From positions 1-64,000 of the forward strand of contig CAADHD010000010.1 in NCBI GenBank assembly GCA_900696575.1: a DNA stretch of 64,000 bases. Direction: 5' to 3'. The translations under genes were made by a program, and so were the position numbers. The notes below the pieces were generated by a model, which saw only the letters and a list, made by a program, of their open reading frames with translations, made no database searches and had not been told where the DNA came from. This document shows positions 13,074-43,858 of this stretch, piece after piece (position 1 is the stretch's first letter; each line of letters starts with the position of its first letter). This DNA is from an uncultured Bacteroidota bacterium (GTDB lineage Bacteria > Bacteroidota > Bacteroidia > AKYH767-A > OLB10).

Positions 13074-15566
13074 ATGGAATCAGAAGACAGAGTCAGGCCA
13101 TTATTCCGAAAACGAAAATGGAAAAACAGATTGATTTTTCTGTTGGTGTTATTAACCGGCCTGTGGCTGGCCTCTTACATGCTTGAAAAAAAAATTAAGC
13201 CTTTTATAATTGAAACCATCAGTTCGCAGCTTACCGTGCCGGTAACGGTAGATGGTATTGAGTTTTCGCTATTCAGGAACTTTCCGTCTGCCACAGTTAT
13301 TCTGCATGGAGTAACGGCCATGCCTGCCTTTTCGGCTGATTATGACACACTGCTTAAGGCCGAAACTGTTTCGGTGCTTGTGCAATGGAATGAACTTTTT
13401 TCATCTGATCTGGCTATCCGGAAAATCGGAATTAAAAACGGAATACTCAACCTGCATATAAAAGCAGATGGCTCTGAGAACTACAGAATCTGGAAAACGG
13501 ACACTACGGATTCAGGAAATCTTGAACTTGATAGAATTATTCTTGACCGGATGCAGTTGAATTACCTTAACGAGCGGGCTCTACAGCAATTGAACTGCAA
13601 AATTGAACACGGGGATATAAGCGCTTTCATAGGAGATCAAATGAAAATTGCGGCAAAAACCGAATTATCCCTGCCGGTGCTGAAAGTGAATGACATTATT
13701 TATCTGAACAAACAGAAAACTAACCTTCATCTCCGTATGGATTATGATAACAAACTGAAACAATACCGGTTTCAGCCTTCGGAAATTACCGTTAACGGTT
13801 TGAAACTCCAGCTAAGCGGCAACATTGATGAGAATGAGAAATATACTGATTATGACCTGAAAATTTCTTCCGGAAAAGCCGGATTGAAAGAATTGATTGC
13901 CCTTATTCCTGAAACGTACTCAGCAAGATGGAAGGAATACAAAATTACTGGAGATGCCTCCTTTCAGATGTCAATCAAAGGAAAACAACAGGGAAATCAG
14001 CAGCCGCTTTTTACCATAAATTTCAAAGCAGAGAATGGAAGCATGCGCAGCGGAAAACCCGAAGCCGTATTGAGTCAAATCAAAATGCATGGTGAATATG
14101 TGAGCCGGATTCCCAATGGAAAAACAGACCGGTTAGAGATAAAAAGTATTTCTGCTTCTCTGAATGGCAAACCTGTAAATGGAAATATGGAAATAACAGG
14201 AACGGCCGATCCTTACCTCATTGCCAGCTTCAGCTCTGAAGCTGCACTGGAGAACATCAGTCGGTTTTTCATGCCTGATTTTCTGCAAAGCATGTCGGGC
14301 GATCTTGTAATTAACAATGCATCGTTCTCAGGCAAACTGAACGATCAGAAGACACATGTTTCTTCAGGTACGGTAAGCATACGCAATGCTGCTGTTTTTT
14401 TCCGCGAAAAACCGGTAAGCATACATAACATTGAAGCTTCACTAAAGCTGGAAAAAAACTTTCTCACCGTAAATCATCTTTCCGGAAATACAGAAAGAAG
14501 TGATTTTGCCTTCTCCGGCAATTTTAAAAACCTGTTTGGTTATTTATGGAATGGCTCTGCCATGAATATGTATGGTTCGCTGCAATCATCCATGCTCGAT
14601 TTCAATGAGATTCTTGCTAAAGAAAAGAGTGAATCAACAGACACGATTTACAGAATCCGGTTTGCCGATAATTTTACTTTTCAATTAAAGCTGAATGTTG
14701 AGCAGACACGATTCAATAAATTCAATGCCACTGCCATTACCGGTTCGGTAAGCCTGAATAATAATTCATTCCGTGCCGATGAGGTAAGTTTTGAAGCCAT
14801 GAACGGCAAAGCCATTATTTCAGGATTCATTTCAGAAATTAAAAAAGACAGCATAATCATTTCTGCTGATGCTTCGCTTAAACAAATCAACATTAAAGAA
14901 ATGTTTTACCAGCTTGGCAATTTTGATCAGGAGGTAATTACCGATAAACATCTAAAGGGCGATGTAACTGCTCAACTCAAATTAGGTTCGCGATGGAGCA
15001 ATACTTTAGAGTGTAATTCTTCAAGTATTACGGCATGGTCTGATATCAGCATCGAAAACGGTGAACTGAATGATTTCGCTCCGATGATGGCGCTTTCAAA
15101 ATACCTGAAAGGAAGCGACCTTAACCGCATCCGCTTTTCAACGCTTAAAAATACCATCGAAATAAAAAACAGGCAAGTAATGATTCCGCAGATGGAAATC
15201 AAATCCTCGGCTGCTGAAGTAACCCTTGCCGGAACTCATTCCTTCGACAACATGATTGATTATAAAATGCAATTATTGCTCTCCCAACTGGTCGGAAAAA
15301 AAGTGAAATCGCTGAACACCGAGTTCGGGCAAATTGAAGATGACCAGTTAGGCCGTACGAAACTGTTTCTTCGCCTAACAGGCCCTGCTGCCAACCCTAA
15401 AATCAGTTACGATACCAAGGCTGTTAAGGAAAAAGTGGCTGCTGAGTTCAAGAAGGAAACACAAACCGTAAAAGAACTTTTAAAACAGGAATTCGGGAAA
15501 AACAAAGAAGAACACAAACGTCTGCCAGCGAAGCAGAAAGAACTGGAAATTGAAGAGGATGAGTAA
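13074..15566 (+). CDS. AsmA-like envelope protein
   Basis: An 830-residue member of the AsmA/TamB-related group, thought to bridge inner and outer membranes or influence outer-membrane lipid and protein assembly. One transmembrane helix lies near residues 21-38 (LIFLLVLLTGLWLASYML). The N-terminal AsmA domain follows, with the typical phrase VPVTVDGIEFSLFRNFPSAT and then repeated beta-strand-rich segments such as IRKIGIKNGILNLHI. The C-terminal third (KMQLLLSQLVGKK, TKLFLRLTGPAANPKISYD) matches the AsmA-like C-terminal region. The last 60 residues are charged and helical. It stands alone, divergent from the xer gene across 146 bases. Its exact role is not known. Confidence 0.85.
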   Translation: MESEDRVRPLFRKRKWKNRLIFLLVLLTGLWLASYMLEKKIKPFIIETISSQLTVPVTVDGIEFSLFRNFPSATVILHGVTAMPAFSADYDTLLKAETVSVLVQWNELFSSDLAIRKIGIKNGILNLHIKADGSENYRIWKTDTTDSGNLELDRIILDRMQLNYLNERALQQLNCKIEHGDISAFIGDQMKIAAKTELSLPVLKVNDIIYLNKQKTNLHLRMDYDNKLKQYRFQPSEITVNGLKLQLSGNIDENEKYTDYDLKISSGKAGLKELIALIPETYSARWKEYKITGDASFQMSIKGKQQGNQQPLFTINFKAENGSMRSGKPEAVLSQIKMHGEYVSRIPNGKTDRLEIKSISASLNGKPVNGNMEITGTADPYLIASFSSEAALENISRFFMPDFLQSMSGDLVINNASFSGKLNDQKTHVSSGTVSIRNAAVFFREKPVSIHNIEASLKLEKNFLTVNHLSGNTERSDFAFSGNFKNLFGYLWNGSAMNMYGSLQSSMLDFNEILAKEKSESTDTIYRIRFADNFTFQLKLNVEQTRFNKFNATAITGSVSLNNNSFRADEVSFEAMNGKAIISGFISEIKKDSIIISADASLKQINIKEMFYQLGNFDQEVITDKHLKGDVTAQLKLGSRWSNTLECNSSSITAWSDISIENGELNDFAPMMALSKYLKGSDLNRIRFSTLKNTIEIKNRQVMIPQMEIKSSAAEVTLAGTHSFDNMIDYKMQLLLSQLVGKKVKSLNTEFGQIEDDQLGRTKLFLRLTGPAANPKISYDTKAVKEKVAAEFKKETQTVKELLKQEFGKNKEEHKRLPAKQKELEIEEDE

Positions 15567-15651
15567 TGAACTGGTTGAAAGGATTGTTGGCAGAAATAAT
15601 TTAGAACTTTATTATAGGTTGTCGTAATCCGGGCTGTTTCTCTTATCCTTT

Positions 15652-15659
15652 TATATTTG
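15652..15659 (+). promoter_or_regulatory. -7 box TATATTTG upstream of SAM riboswitch
   Basis: Exact TAnnTTTG match 22 bases before the riboswitch P1 helix, well placed to start the leader transcript of the mnmD-metH region. Confidence 0.65.
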
Positions 15660-15680
15660 CACCCTGTTCTTTATTCAATT

Positions 15681-15790
15681 GCTTATCAAGAAAGGTGGAG
15701 GGACAGTGCCCTGCGAAACCTTGACAACCTCCCGCTTTTCAGGCGGGAAAGGTGCCAATTCACTCTCGCCTCAATCGAGAACAGATAAGC
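15681..15790 (+). promoter_or_regulatory. SAM-I (S box) riboswitch aptamer
   Basis: The leader RNA matches the SAM-I aptamer that binds S-adenosylmethionine. P1 pairs CTTATC (15682-15687) with GATAAG (15784-15789). Conserved blocks in order are AAGAAAGGTGGAGGGA, CAGTGCCCTGCGAAACC and GGTGCCAATTC. P3 is CCCGC (15731-15735) with GCGGG (15743-15747), and P4 is TCTCG (15764-15768) with CGAGA (15776-15780). It lies between a TATATTTG promoter box and mnmD, with metH further downstream. The role in methionine/SAM feedback is established for this family; its action on this operon is inferred. Confidence 0.96.
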
Positions 15791-15835
15791 CGGAATCAGA
15801 TTAGAAAAAGCAATTTCAACATCTCTTTCGGCTTA
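15786..15835 (+). promoter_or_regulatory. Antiterminator helix of the SAM switch
   Basis: TAAGCCGGAA (15786-15795) can pair over 10 positions (one G-T) with TTTCGGCTTA (15826-15835). Its left strand shares TAAG with the 3' strand of aptamer P1, and its right strand overlaps the terminator stem. P1 and antiterminator are therefore mutually exclusive, as are antiterminator and terminator. Confidence 0.8.
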
Positions 15836-15853
15836 CCGGAAGAGTTTTTTTTT
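15823..15853 (+). terminator. Riboswitch-controlled intrinsic terminator
   Basis: CTCTTTCGG (15823-15831) pairs with CCGGAAGAG (15836-15844) as a 9-bp stem with one G-T pair and loop CTTA, followed by nine T residues (15845-15853). It lies 53 bases before the mnmD ATG. When SAM stabilises P1 the antiterminator cannot form and this hairpin should end transcription. Confidence 0.9.
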
Positions 15854-15906
15854 GACCGTGATTGAATGACGAACATTGAATTTGAATTTTTGAAATAAAT
15901 GTTGAA

Positions 15907-16641
15907 ATGGAAGATATAATTAAACTGATAAACACCAAAGAAGGAATTCATACGCTTCATCACACAGCGTTGATGGAAAGTTATCATTCAATACATGGTT
16001 CGCTGCAGGAAAGCATGCATGTGTTTATTGAGAATGGATTGCTTGCTTCCACATCAATTACCAAAAGTGAAAACAGAGAATTAAAAATTCTTGAAATGGG
16101 ATTCGGCACCGGACTGAATGCCTTGCTTTCTTACCGCGAAAATCTGAAGCTAAACAGATTTATCCATTTCACTACCGTAGAAGCTTTTCCTCTGCCGTTG
16201 AATATCATTTACCGGCTTAACTATTTTGATTTTTTAGAAAAGCCGCTACAGCCTGTTTTCCTGAAAATGCATGAATGCCATTGGTTTGAAACTATTGACA
16301 TCACCCCTCTTGCCCTGCCTGCCAACCAGGCAAACGATCAGGCTTCAGAGCAAAGAGGGAAATTTTTTCTGTTTAAAATTCAGGCAGATATGCTTGAACT
16401 GAAACTCGAAGACAATTATGATTTGGTTTATTACGATGCCTTCTCGCCTGCTCATCAACCGGAACTCTGGACGTTTGAAGTGCTTAAAAAAATTTACGAT
16501 GCCTGTAATGAGGACGCTTCTCTGGTTACTTATTGTGCCAAAGGCGAAGTGAAACGAACACTGCAGAAAGTTGGCTTCAAAGTAGAAACATTGAAGGGGC
16601 CGAATGGAAAAAGAGAGATGATCAAAGCTGTAAAATATTAA
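15907..16641 (+). CDS. mnmD: MnmD-like tRNA wobble-uridine methyltransferase
   Basis: A 244-residue DUF752 methyltransferase. By family it transfers a methyl group from SAM to aminomethyl-(2-thio)uridine at tRNA position 34, the last step of mnm5(s2)U formation. It corresponds to the methyltransferase half of bifunctional MnmC and lacks the FAD oxidoreductase half, as in stand-alone MnmD. The SAM-binding loop is EMGFGTGLNALLS, and the family signature YYDAFSPAHQPELW follows in the second half. The ATG at 15907 lies just after the riboswitch terminator, so the gene is the first controlled by the SAM switch. It is followed by a decayed gene and metH on the same strand. Confidence 0.87.
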   Translation: MEDIIKLINTKEGIHTLHHTALMESYHSIHGSLQESMHVFIENGLLASTSITKSENRELKILEMGFGTGLNALLSYRENLKLNRFIHFTTVEAFPLPLNIIYRLNYFDFLEKPLQPVFLKMHECHWFETIDITPLALPANQANDQASEQRGKFFLFKIQADMLELKLEDNYDLVYYDAFSPAHQPELWTFEVLKKIYDACNEDASLVTYCAKGEVKRTLQKVGFKVETLKGPNGKREMIKAVKY

Positions 16642-16674
16642 ATAATGAACCTTAAATTTTAAATAATAAAGTGA

Positions 16675-17073
16675 ATGGAAAATAAAAAGAAATTTGACCT
16701 TAATGAGCGATTCATCTCATTAGCTGCTTTAATAATACAATATGCTGAGAAAATTCAAAGGAACGAAACAGGCCAGTATTTATACGGGCAATTACTTTGT
16801 TCCGGAACTTCACCAGCATTACATTACGGTGAAGCACTTAGTGCAGAGTAAAGGAAAGGTTTTGTCCATAAGTTGAAAATTCATCTTAAGGAACTGAGAG
16901 AAACACAAAATAATTTACAAATTCTTGAAAGCGCTAATAACCTGAAAAAGGATTTAATCATCACTATTAAAATAAAAGCATGTAAAGAACTAACAGCAAT
17001 TTTTACAAAAAGTATTGATACTGCAAAAACCAACATGATAAAAGAAAAGTTAAAAACGCAATCAAAACTATAA
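16675..17073 (+). pseudogene. Four-helix-bundle (S23/IVP-type) gene, interrupted
   Basis: The frame starts at the ATG at 16675 (MENKKKFDLNERFISLAAL), runs 58 codons, meets TAA at 16849-16851, and continues in the same frame to TAA at 17071-17073, giving 132 sense-equivalent positions if read through. The parts before and after the stop together match the four helix bundle family linked to 23S rRNA intervening sequences: SGTSPALHYGEALSAE then, after the stop, RKGFVHKLKIHLKELRETQ. The stop sits where the family usually has Ser, so a single change TCA to TAA explains it. The second piece is open from a TTG at 16873 but is unlikely to be a separate gene. The segment is AT-richer than mnmD and metH, which suggests later arrival. 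Confidence 0.8.
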
Positions 17074-17106
17074 TATTCAACATTGAAAATTTAATATTTA
17101 TTATTC

Positions 17107-20100
17107 ATGAATACTTCCATCGGGAAACAACTAAAAGACCGCATCCTCATCATTGACGGGGCCATGGGAACCATGATTCAGCAGTATAAGCTAAAGGAGG
17201 AAGATTACCGCGGGGAACGGTTTAAAAACTGGAAAACCGAGCTGAAAGGCAACAACGATTTACTTTCCATCACACAGCCGGATATTATCAAAGCCATCCA
17301 TCTCGAATACCTGAAAGCAGGAGCCGATATTATTGAAACCAATACGTTTAATGCCCAACGTATTTCCTTAGCCGACTATCAGATGGAAGAACTGGCGTAT
17401 GAAATGAATCTGGAAGCAGCAAGAATTGCCGTGCAGGCGCGCAGTGAGTACAACATTCAACATTCATCCCCCGACATTCAACCATCGAAATTCATAGCAG
17501 GGGCATTAGGCCCTACTAACCGCACACTGAGTTTATCTCCTGATGTAAATAACCCCGGCTATCGTGCCGTAACATGGGATGAAGTGGTGCTGGCATACAC
17601 CGAACAAACACGAGGACTGATTGATGGCGGTGTGGATTTAATTCTGATTGAAACAGTTTTTGACACACTCAATGCGAAGGCAGCTTTGTTTGCCGTGCAA
17701 AGTGTGTTTGAAGAAAAAGGCATTGAACTTCCGGTTATGATTTCAGGAACCATTACCGATGCCAGCGGAAGAACGCTGTCTGGACAGACAGTTGAAGCAT
17801 TTCTCAATTCTGTTTCGCATTATCCGTTGCTCAGCATTGGTTTGAACTGCGCACTCGGTGCAAAAGAAATGCGACCCTATCTGGAAGAACTTTCGGAGAA
17901 AGCACCATTTTTTATTTCTGCTTATCCAAATGCCGGCTTGCCCAATCAATTTGGCCGGTACGATGAAACTCCGGAACAGATGTGCATGCAGATGGAAGAT
18001 TTTCTTTCCAGCGGTTTTGTAAATATGATTGGTGGCTGCTGCGGAACTACTCCCGAACATATTAAACACATTGCCGAACATGCACACAAACACCAGCCGC
18101 GTGTAATTCCCAAGGTGGAACCATATCTGCGGCTAAGCGGCCTGGAAGCCGTTACTCTTCGCCCGGAATCCAATTTTTTTAACGTTGGCGAACGTACTAA
18201 CGTAACCGGATCGAAAAAATTTCTCCGCCTGATTAAAGAAGAAAAATACGATGAAGCCTTAACCGTAGCACGTGAGCAGGTAGAAGGGGGCGCACAGGCT
18301 ATTGACATCAACATGGACGAAGGCATGCTCGATGCTGTTAAGGCCATGACTACTTTTTTAAATCTCATTGCTGCCGAACCCGACATTTCAAAAGTTCCTG
18401 TTATGCTTGATTCCTCAAAGTTTGAGGTGATAGAAGCCGGATTGAAATGCATTCAGGGAAAGGGAATTGTTAATTCCATCTCTATGAAAGGCGGGGAAGA
18501 AGAATTTATCCGTCAGGCTAAAACCATAAAAAAATATGGTGCGGCTGTTATCGTCATGCTGTTTGATGAACAGGGACAAGCCGACACCACACCGCGAAGA
18601 ATCGAAATTGCCAAACGCGCTTATGATATTCTGGTTAACCGGGTAAAATTTCCGGCACAGGATATCATTTTCGATCCTAACATTTTTCCCGTTGCCACTG
18701 GTATGGAAGAGCACCGTAAAAATGCTGTTAGTTTTTTTGAAGCCACAAAATGGATAAAAGAAAACCTGCCGCTGGCAAAAGTTTCAGGCGGAGTAAGCAA
18801 TGTTTCATTCTCCTTCCGCGGTAATGACCATGTGCGCGAAAGTATTCATGCAGCTTTTTTATATCACGGCATTAAAGCAGGAATGGATATGGGCATTGTA
18901 AATCCATCGCAGTTGATAGTGTATGATGAAATAGAAAATGAATTACTGGAGCTTGTAGAAGATGTATTACTGGATAGAAAAGCAGATGCAACAGATAAAT
19001 TAATCTCTTATGCAGAATCATTAAAAGGAAACCTCACCCGCGGCCACTCACCAAAAGAGAAGGGAGAAACCGAATGGCGAAAACTTCCCTTGCAGGAACG
19101 TATTACTCATTCACTGGTAAAAGGAATAACAGATTTTATCGAACAGGATATTGAAGAAGCGCGCCAGCAATTCAGCAAAGCGCTGGAAGTGATCGAAGGT
19201 CCGTTGATGAAAGGCATGAGCGTAGTTGGCGATTTATTCGGTGAAGGAAAAATGTTTTTGCCACAGGTGGTAAAGAGCGCCAGGGTGATGAAAAAGGCTG
19301 TGGCTTACCTTACTCCTTTTATTGAAGCTGAAAAAACCAAAGGTGAAACCAAAGGTAAAATCGTACTCGCAACCGTTAAAGGTGATGTACATGACATCGG
19401 AAAAAACATTGTGGGAGTAGTGCTGGCCTGTAACAATTATGATATTGTTGATCTGGGGGTGATGGTGCCGTGTGAAAAAATTTTAGCAAAAGCCAAAGAA
19501 GAAAAAGCAGATGTAATCGGTCTGAGCGGATTGATTACTCCATCGCTGGATGAAATGGTGCATGTGGCCAGAGAAATGCAGCGCGAGGGTCTTGAAATTC
19601 CGTTGCTCATTGGCGGAGCTACAACTTCCAAAGTACATACTGCCGTAAAAATTGAACCGAATTACTCAGGTGTGGTGGTGCATGTAAATGATGCTTCCCG
19701 CAGTGTACCGGTAGTAAGCAACCTGCTGTCTAAAGATTTGCAGAAAAAATATGGTGAAGAAGTTAAAGCTGAAAATGCGCGTACCCGCCAGTATCATCAG
19801 GCAGACCGGGCCAGGGGAAATTATGTTTCGATTGAGGATGCAAGAAAGAGCAGATTCGTTCCGGGAGAGCAAAGTATTTCCAAACCAAATTTGCCTGGTA
19901 TAACCGTTTTTGACAACTACAATTTATCGGAAATTGCCCGATACATTGACTGGACTCCGTTTTTCATCAGTTGGGAAATGAAAGGCAGTTATCCGAAAAT
20001 TTTAAAGGATCCGGTACGCGGAAAAGAAGCACAGAAACTTTTTGAGGATGCACAGGCCATGCTGAAAAAAATAATTGAAGAAAAATGGCTGACGGCAAAA

Positions 20101-20805: not shown

Positions 20806-20813
20806 TACATTTG
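20806..20813 (+). promoter_or_regulatory. -7 box TACATTTG for accA
   Basis: Exact TAnnTTTG match with only 5 bases between it and the accA ATG, so the mRNA is expected to be leaderless or nearly so. Confidence 0.6.
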
Positions 20814-20818
20814 TTGCC

Positions 20819-21772
20819 ATGAATTTTCTTGATTTCGAAAAACCCATCAGCGAACTTACGGAGCAGCTTGAGAAAGCAAAACAGATTGGTGCTAAAGGAA
20901 AAATCAATACCGATAAGTTAGTAGCTGAACTTGAACAAAAAATTGAAGAAGCGCGCGAAACCATTTACAAAAGCCTTACCCCCTGGCAGAAGGTTCAGGT
21001 GTCACGTCATCCTGACCGGCCTTATTCGCTTGATTACATCAATGCCATTACCGAAGGAAACTTTATAGAATTGTTTGGCGACCGTAATGTTCGCGATGAT
21101 AAAGCCATGATTGGCGGCATGGGTTTGGTTGACGGAAAATCCATCATGTTCATCGGCCAGCAGAAAGGCAACAATACCAAGATGAGGCAGTACCGTAATT
21201 TCGGAATGCCGAATCCTGAAGGTTACCGGAAAGCGTTACGATTAATGAAACTTGCCGAAAAATTCGGTAAACCTGTGGTTACTTTTATTGATACTCCCGG
21301 TGCCTATCCCGGCTTAGAGGCAGAAGAACGCGGACAGGGTGAAGCCATTGCCCGCAATCTTTTCGAAATGGCACGATTAAAAGTTCCGGTTATCTGTTTC
21401 ATCATTGGCGAAGGCGCTTCGGGTGGAGCATTGGGAATTGGGATAGGTGATAAAGTCATCATGCTTGAATTCACTTGGTACTCTGTTATTTCTCCCGAAT
21501 CGTGCTCTTCGATTTTATGGCGTAATTGGGATAACAAAGAAAAAGCGGCTGAAGCCCTTAAACTCACCGCTACAGACATGCTCAGCCTTAAGCTTATTGA
21601 TGGAATTCTGAAAGAACCCGTTGGCGGTGCTCACAGCCATCCCGAAAAAATGTTTCACTCGGTAAAATCTGAGCTGATGAAACAGTTGAATAAACTTTCA
21701 TCCATCCCTGCTGATGAACTGGTAAACAAGAGGATTGAAAAATTCTGCAGCATGGGCGTTTATTCGGAATAA
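20819..21772 (+). CDS. accA: Acetyl-CoA carboxylase carboxyltransferase alpha
   Basis: Alpha subunit of the carboxyltransferase that moves carboxyl from biotin carboxyl carrier protein to acetyl-CoA, giving malonyl-CoA for fatty acid synthesis. The protein has 317 residues, the normal size. The N-terminus [19 protein letters not shown] and the paired helices are typical. The core shows [38 protein letters not shown] and [17 protein letters not shown], which form the CoA-binding crotonase-like fold. It has its own promoter box 5 bases before the ATG and is followed by dnaB, which also has its own promoter. AccD is not in the window. Confidence 0.97.
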
Positions 21773-43380: not shown

Positions 43381-43858
43381 GGGTTTTGAAGAAAGGTGAG
43401 GGGGAAGGCAGCAAGGGCAGTGGAGGATTTAATTCACAATCAGGTTTTGGTGTTTGCCTTGCCTGTGTTTGGTGTTTGGTGTTTAAAGCCAAAGCTTTTA
43501 AACAGATTCCTGCTTATGCAGGAATGACAGCGGAAGCGGGTAGTTTAAGTGGGGTTGGGCGAATGAAGGATTCTCCCTATATAAGGTGTTTAATGCTACA
43601 GCTTTTAAACAAGAAAACTTTCAGAACATGATTAGGGAGATGCCTCTCTCGTCATAACTGACGAGATCAGCTTGACAGACACGGAATAACATTAATCTAT
43701 CCGCTTAGGGTAGAATGGTTACTACCATGCCGGATTGCAGCGGAAAGCTCCCGCTAAAAGAGCGGGACTTGAAGCGAAAAGCCGGAATGCCGGTATCTGC
43801 AAAGAACCACAGGCGGAGGTCATGCATAAAAATCTTAATCCCTTCATCCCCGCTTCCC
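43381..43858. repeat. Palindrome-rich gene-free island with repeat copy B
   Basis: About 480 bases without a supported gene. Palindromes: TTCCTGC-TTAT-GCAGGAA (43507-43524); TCTCGTCA-TAAC-TGACGAGA (43647-43666); ATGGT-TACT-ACCAT (43715-43728); TCCCGCT-AAAAG-AGCGGGA (43749-43767). TCTCCCTA near 43572 and TAGGGAGA near 43633 form a wider inverted repeat. AGCTTTTAAACA occurs at 43493 and 43600. The core starting at 43618 matches the repeat at 30201. Several GTGTTTGG repeats lie at 43452-43485. Confidence 0.7.

Follow-up and report, generated by a model that had tools for sequence, protein, structure and literature searches.

The gene for the tRNA wobble methyltransferase MnmD is the first gene under a SAM-I riboswitch, ahead of metH, in the genome of an uncultured Bacteroidota bacterium. 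The stretch of DNA analysed, denominated here the window, spans 64,000 nucleotides, and the features of the locus are listed in Table 1. That mnmD occupies this place had been proposed in a sequence-only reading, and is upheld by the matches of aptamer, MnmD and MetH to their respective models. The same reading had found it unexpected that a SAM user should be placed under SAM-I control, and this is borne out as gene order. To judge from the sequence, mnmD very probably belongs in earnest to an operon repressed by SAM. We consider it reasonably probable that the locus works as a transcription-attenuation unit under SAM repression, in which mnmD and metH are partners and the benefit lies in matching SAM demand. 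The unit would be arranged in the order promoter, SAM-I aptamer, antiterminator/terminator, mnmD and metH.

Table 1. Features of the riboswitch-mnmD-metH locus (window coordinates) and loci in other genomes where MT2 precedes metH.
Feature	Position	Strand	Basis or remark
Bacteroidota-type -7 promoter element TATATTTG (TANNTTTG) of the leader	15652..15659	+	sequence match
GTTCTT motif	15666..15671	+	recurs in SAM-I leaders of Bacteroidota, 4-7 nt past TANNTTTG
SAM-I riboswitch aptamer (S-box), RF00162	15680..15791	+	Rfam covariance model
Antiterminator 5' arm TAAGCCGGAA (3' side of P1 and flank)	15786..15795	+	folding
Antiterminator 3' arm TTTCGGCTTA	15826..15835	+	folding
Intrinsic terminator, stem and T9 tract	15823..15853	+	predicted OFF with SAM bound
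mnmD (stand-alone MnmC2), predicted tRNA wobble nm5(s2)U34 methyltransferase, 244 aa, intact	15907..16641	+	profile and structure matches
Degraded four-helix-bundle ORF (PF05635, 23S_rRNA_IVP-like)	16675..17073	+	in-frame TAA at 16849
metH, cobalamin-dependent methionine synthase, 1224 aa	17107..20781	+	profile match
TACATTTG, candidate separate promoter element of accA	20806..20813	+	consensus -7 match
accA	20819-21772	+	profile match
MT2-before-metH loci	L262-L268, L270-L272, L274-L276, L286, L288, L290		

The mnmD product scores 182.1 bits against the NCBIfam MnmC2/MnmD profile NF033855 (cut-off 136), and matches PF05430. In a PDB search it also matches solved structures, namely 3VYW, which is the MnmC2 of Aquifex, and that of the methyltransferase domain of MnmC. 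The SAM-binding and catalytic motifs of MnmC2, EMGFGTGLN and DAFSPAHQPELW, are both present, and the two regions align to 3VYW. No MnmC1 oxidase is fused to the protein, and none was found over cut-off in 24 family genomes, in agreement with the notion that Bacteroidota have mnmC(m) without mnmC(o) (PMC9976899). MnmG is found over cut-off in the window genome, and the substrate of MnmD should therefore be made.

With 73.3 bits (E 2.8e-15 in the 64-kb search), the aptamer exceeds its gathering score of 44.4, and is matched in full length (model positions 1-108). It is the sole RF00162 match revealed by a whole-genome search of the 2.87-Mb, 100%-complete assembly. The TTG element located upstream of the leader's -7 element TATATTTG is weak. 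The terminator features a 9-bp stem (15823-15844) followed by nine T, and is the only terminator-like site on the plus strand within 15500-17200. The predicted antiterminator results from the pairing over 10 bp of the two arms reported in Table 1. As its 3' arm overlaps both the 5' strand and the loop of the terminator, the two folds are mutually exclusive, the predicted energies of the leader being -53.0 kcal/mol in the terminator (OFF) fold and -49.0 kcal/mol in the antiterminator fold. The SAM-I switch is accordingly predicted to have a proper expression platform, an antiterminator exclusive with a terminator, and by these folds the leader is a usual SAM-OFF transcription attenuator. Upon SAM binding, P1 would close, the 5' arm of the antiterminator would be sequestered, and the terminator would form ahead of mnmD. 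When SAM is low, the 10-bp antiterminator would form, and RNA polymerase would read through mnmD into metH. In each of the four other linked loci, too, mnmD is preceded by an aptamer and then by a strong terminator; none of these loci has a switching pair as clean as that of the window.

GTTCTT motifs are located at most 75 nt upstream of the aptamer in 68 of 111 SAM-I aptamers, where shuffling predicts 4.8. They mostly follow a TANNTTTG promoter element at a distance of 4-7 nt, and may function in initiation or in pairing within the leader. The spaced TANNTTTG-GTTCTT pattern is not enriched across the window as a whole. The window hosts also a match to the Flavo-1 RNA (RF01705) at 43723-43792, just above the gathering score.

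The mnmD and metH genes are separated in the window by 465 nt. The interval hosts a degraded ORF, left out by the sequence-only reading, which matches PF05635 with an E value of 9.5e-7, below the gathering score, when the stop is read through as X. Inserts of this kind are missing in all the linked relatives in which the mnmD-metH junction is readable. The ORF is a decayed insert, apparently lineage-specific and peculiar to the window genome among those compared, and would have entered the unit later than mnmD. Neither a terminator nor a consensus promoter was found in the 465-nt gap, which could harbour a weak promoter.

Sequences preceding mnmD have also to be considered, because mnmD might be isolated from the switch by a promoter of its own located past the terminator, and the adjacency would then have no regulatory meaning. 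Two one-mismatch promoter-like sites are indeed found in the interval 15852-15892, between terminator and mnmD. However, AT-rich sequence readily yields one-mismatch sites, and no strict TANNTTTG was found from the terminator to mnmD. Moreover, the terminator belongs to the switch and is placed ahead of the gene, and none was found between mnmD and metH. An independent mnmD is thus highly improbable. The sequence-only reading had regarded as fatal to a regulatory link a promoter and terminator that set the gene apart. Such isolation is discarded, as neither a terminator nor a promoter of consensus type with this effect was found. From the arrangement of the locus we infer that the leader promoter is used, that transcription responds to SAM, and that mnmD and metH are co-transcribed across the gap.

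MetH scores 2056 bits against NF007024, above the curated cut-off, and is the sole metH-type synthase in the window genome. Since metE was found in none of the 24 family genomes searched, the window genome included, the cell probably has no methionine synthase other than MetH. The SAM-I unit probably ends with metH, and its extension into accA is rejected, because accA has a consensus -7 element of its own, and in relatives is not found behind metH.

Gene order was compared across 120 genomes and additional fetched loci. The switch-mnmD order is found in five genera belonging to two GTDB families, represented by the window genome (G000), G003, G009, G019 (Bacteroidetes bacterium UBA6661) and G037 (a Lac Pavin MAG). 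The distance of mnmD from metH varies, with gaps of 9 nt in G003 and 31 nt in G019, and an overlap of 14 nt in G009. In G037 the contig ends after mnmD, and metH starts at the end of another contig. G037 is in a different GTDB family from the other linked genomes, and its cassette resides in a 10.9-kb contig; it is possible that the cassette was acquired by transfer, or that the contig was mis-binned. In three congeners of G019 (G005, G012 and G016) the switch is directly before metH, and mnmD is found nowhere in the genome. As these species keep switch and metH without mnmD, the pairing is dispensable. The genome G001, which is 99% complete and belongs to the same genus as the window genome, is uninformative on the timing of the arrangement, as neighbouring genes are rearranged, and switch, mnmD and metH were not found. 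Since metE is similarly not found, G001 may correspond to a methionine auxotroph, or may have missing contigs.

Among the loci examined, the association is confined to the linked group. Among the best 80 mnmD loci in genome contigs, no SAM-I switch adjoins mnmD except in the G019 and G037 records. None was detected by Rfam scan at 20 further MnmD loci outside the linked MetH clade, and neither switch nor metH is adjacent at the mnmD loci examined outside the linked group. A wider MnmD-switch link in Bacteroidota was accordingly not found among the best 80 contig loci and the 20 scanned loci.

A survey of 111 RF00162 matches places these loci in a broader frame. The first gene is metH in 76, mnmD followed by metH in 5 (G037, where metH is not readable, is counted among these), and a second methyltransferase gene, denominated MT2, followed by metH in 3. 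Most of the remaining first genes resemble methionine-pathway genes (metB/metY, metX, metE, metF; named by eye). In the 84 metH-associated switches, all 8 intervening genes encode SAM-dependent methyltransferases (5 MnmD, 3 MT2), and no other gene type was found between switch and metH among the 111 switches surveyed. Two near-identical contigs of G007, C56 and C82, each carry a switch-metH start (L069, L070), which suggests strain variants or a duplication in the assembly.

Since most of the surveyed switches (76 of 111) lie immediately ahead of metH, mnmD must have been inserted at some point. In the MnmD tree, G000, G003, G019 and G037 form a clade at 100/100. G009 MnmD is long-branched and falls apart from these, but the AU test is compatible with monophyly of the five (p 0.275). 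The MetH tree unites G005, G012 and G016 with the five linked genomes (87/92), G009 being basal in this clade, and this fits an old event retained by descent. In the likeliest history suggested by the trees, mnmD was inserted once into an older switch-metH unit, was then kept, and was lost a single time, among some members of genus g5. Insertions of mnmD were possibly two, and the G009 arrangement is possibly of independent origin.

The sequence-only reading had proposed that wobble modification, and with it decoding, would be tied to the SAM level, and had suspected as the alternative an accidental insertion of mnmD between switch and metH. Such an accident is unlikely, given the order shared by five genera, the tight junctions, the MetH tree and the presence of MT2 in the same slot, and a recent accident is ruled out by repeated order, tight junctions and MetH clade. 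Gene order in relatives had been indicated as the discriminating check, and gives a mixed, though informative, answer: the switch-mnmD order is repeated, as a functional link would have it, but the switch directly before metH, taken as a sign of insertion, is commoner.

MT2, an uncharacterised class-I SAM methyltransferase unrelated to MnmD, gives only weak matches to class-I profiles (BioC, UbiE, DVU_1556), all far below cut-off. Across 395 genomes of the class, 30 MT2 homologues were found. Of these, 16 immediately precede metH, all in families other than those with linked mnmD (f10, f25 and f41), and a SAM-I switch above cut-off is found upstream in 14 of these 16 genomes. On the MT2 tree the linked state has to change twice, and one origin is compatible as well. 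At locus L266, on the reverse strand, MT2 and metH are preceded by TATATTTG and, almost at once, a terminator-like hairpin. No aptamer lies between element and hairpin, and the leader looks like one that has lost it.

The main rival explanation is neutral hitch-hiking. According to this, mnmD came to lie behind a strong leader and lost its own promoter, and would be retained solely through its dependence on that of the leader, SAM control being a tolerated side effect. The prevalence of switches directly before metH fits this view, as does the loss of mnmD from the three G019 congeners that kept switch and metH. The unrelated four-helix-bundle gene in the window tells in the same direction, as it also entered the switch-mnmD-metH unit. 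On the other hand, the intervening genes before metH are all SAM methyltransferases, of two unrelated families and in distant host families, and in three genera mnmD comes close to metH or overlaps it. If methyltransferases make up a few percent of genes, the repeated insertion of genes of this one kind, in two to four independent events, would be improbable by chance. The pattern consists of these few events, and was noticed after the fact. On balance, hitch-hiking is regarded as rather unlikely.

The two unrelated methyltransferases, presumably acting on different substrates, could also occupy the slot before metH for a reason of methyl-cycle economy. Methyltransferases generate SAH, which is hydrolysed to give homocysteine for MetH, and consumer and recycler might be grouped whatever the substrate. 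MnmD would be, however, a poor source of homocysteine, as tRNA methylation is a small flux relative to total SAM use, and repression by SAM would shut the consumer off just when SAM is plentiful. This explanation is hence improbable.

Matching of SAM demand is the explanation preferred here. Having joined an older switch-metH unit once, or possibly twice, in the ancestry of the clade, mnmD would have been kept as an operon partner. As SAM falls, MnmD would be less saturated, and additional enzyme would keep mnm5(s2)U34 methylation near complete, while metH would restore methionine. On metabolic logic, the most likely benefit is therefore the matching of a SAM consumer to SAM supply, a flux compensation. 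A point against this benefit is that the advantage of making more of a SAM-consuming enzyme during SAM shortage is not obvious.

SAM-I targets are usually seen as genes making or importing methionine or SAM. A conserved target that consumes SAM, along with a convergent second methyltransferase, suggests an additional role of the riboswitch, in setting how far the cell can carry out certain methylations. If true, methyl-donor status would be directly linked to tRNA wobble modification. Only tentatively can this be extended to the proposal that Bacteroidota SAM-I switches repeatedly captured SAM-consuming methyltransferases (MnmD, MT2) ahead of metH as supply-and-demand operons. In these, the enzyme would rise as SAM falls, the chosen methylation would be held constant, and wobble decoding would be buffered against methionine starvation. 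The uncharacterised MT2 family gains a strong clue from its genomic context. No report of SAM-I control of mnmD, of an mnmC-type gene or of another methyltransferase was found in the open-access literature.

The locus resembles known SAM-I transcription-termination switches (RF00162) in the full aptamer, in the P1 overlapping the antiterminator, in the Rho-independent terminator, in the predicted OFF state with SAM, and in the presence of a methionine gene downstream. It differs in that the first gene encodes a SAM-consuming tRNA methyltransferase, whereas the usual first gene is for methionine biosynthesis or transport. Leader layout, terminator position and metH are shared with the Bacteroidota loci in which the switch is directly before metH, the commonest arrangement in the survey; in the window, in contrast, mnmD and the broken four-helix-bundle gene lie in between. 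The SAM-I/MT2/metH loci of families f10, f25 and f41 similarly feature a SAM-dependent methyltransferase in the slot before metH, but MT2 is BioC/UbiE-like by profile, far below every equivalog cut-off, and is not MnmD. The stand-alone MnmC2 (DUF752) of Aquifex aeolicus has been described as PDB 3VYW (PMC6313347). MnmD, like this protein, is an MnmC methyltransferase domain without the MnmC1 oxidase, and the FGTGLN and DAFSP..PELW motifs are conserved in both. Unlike the Aquifex gene, mnmD is located, in the clade of the window, under a SAM riboswitch.
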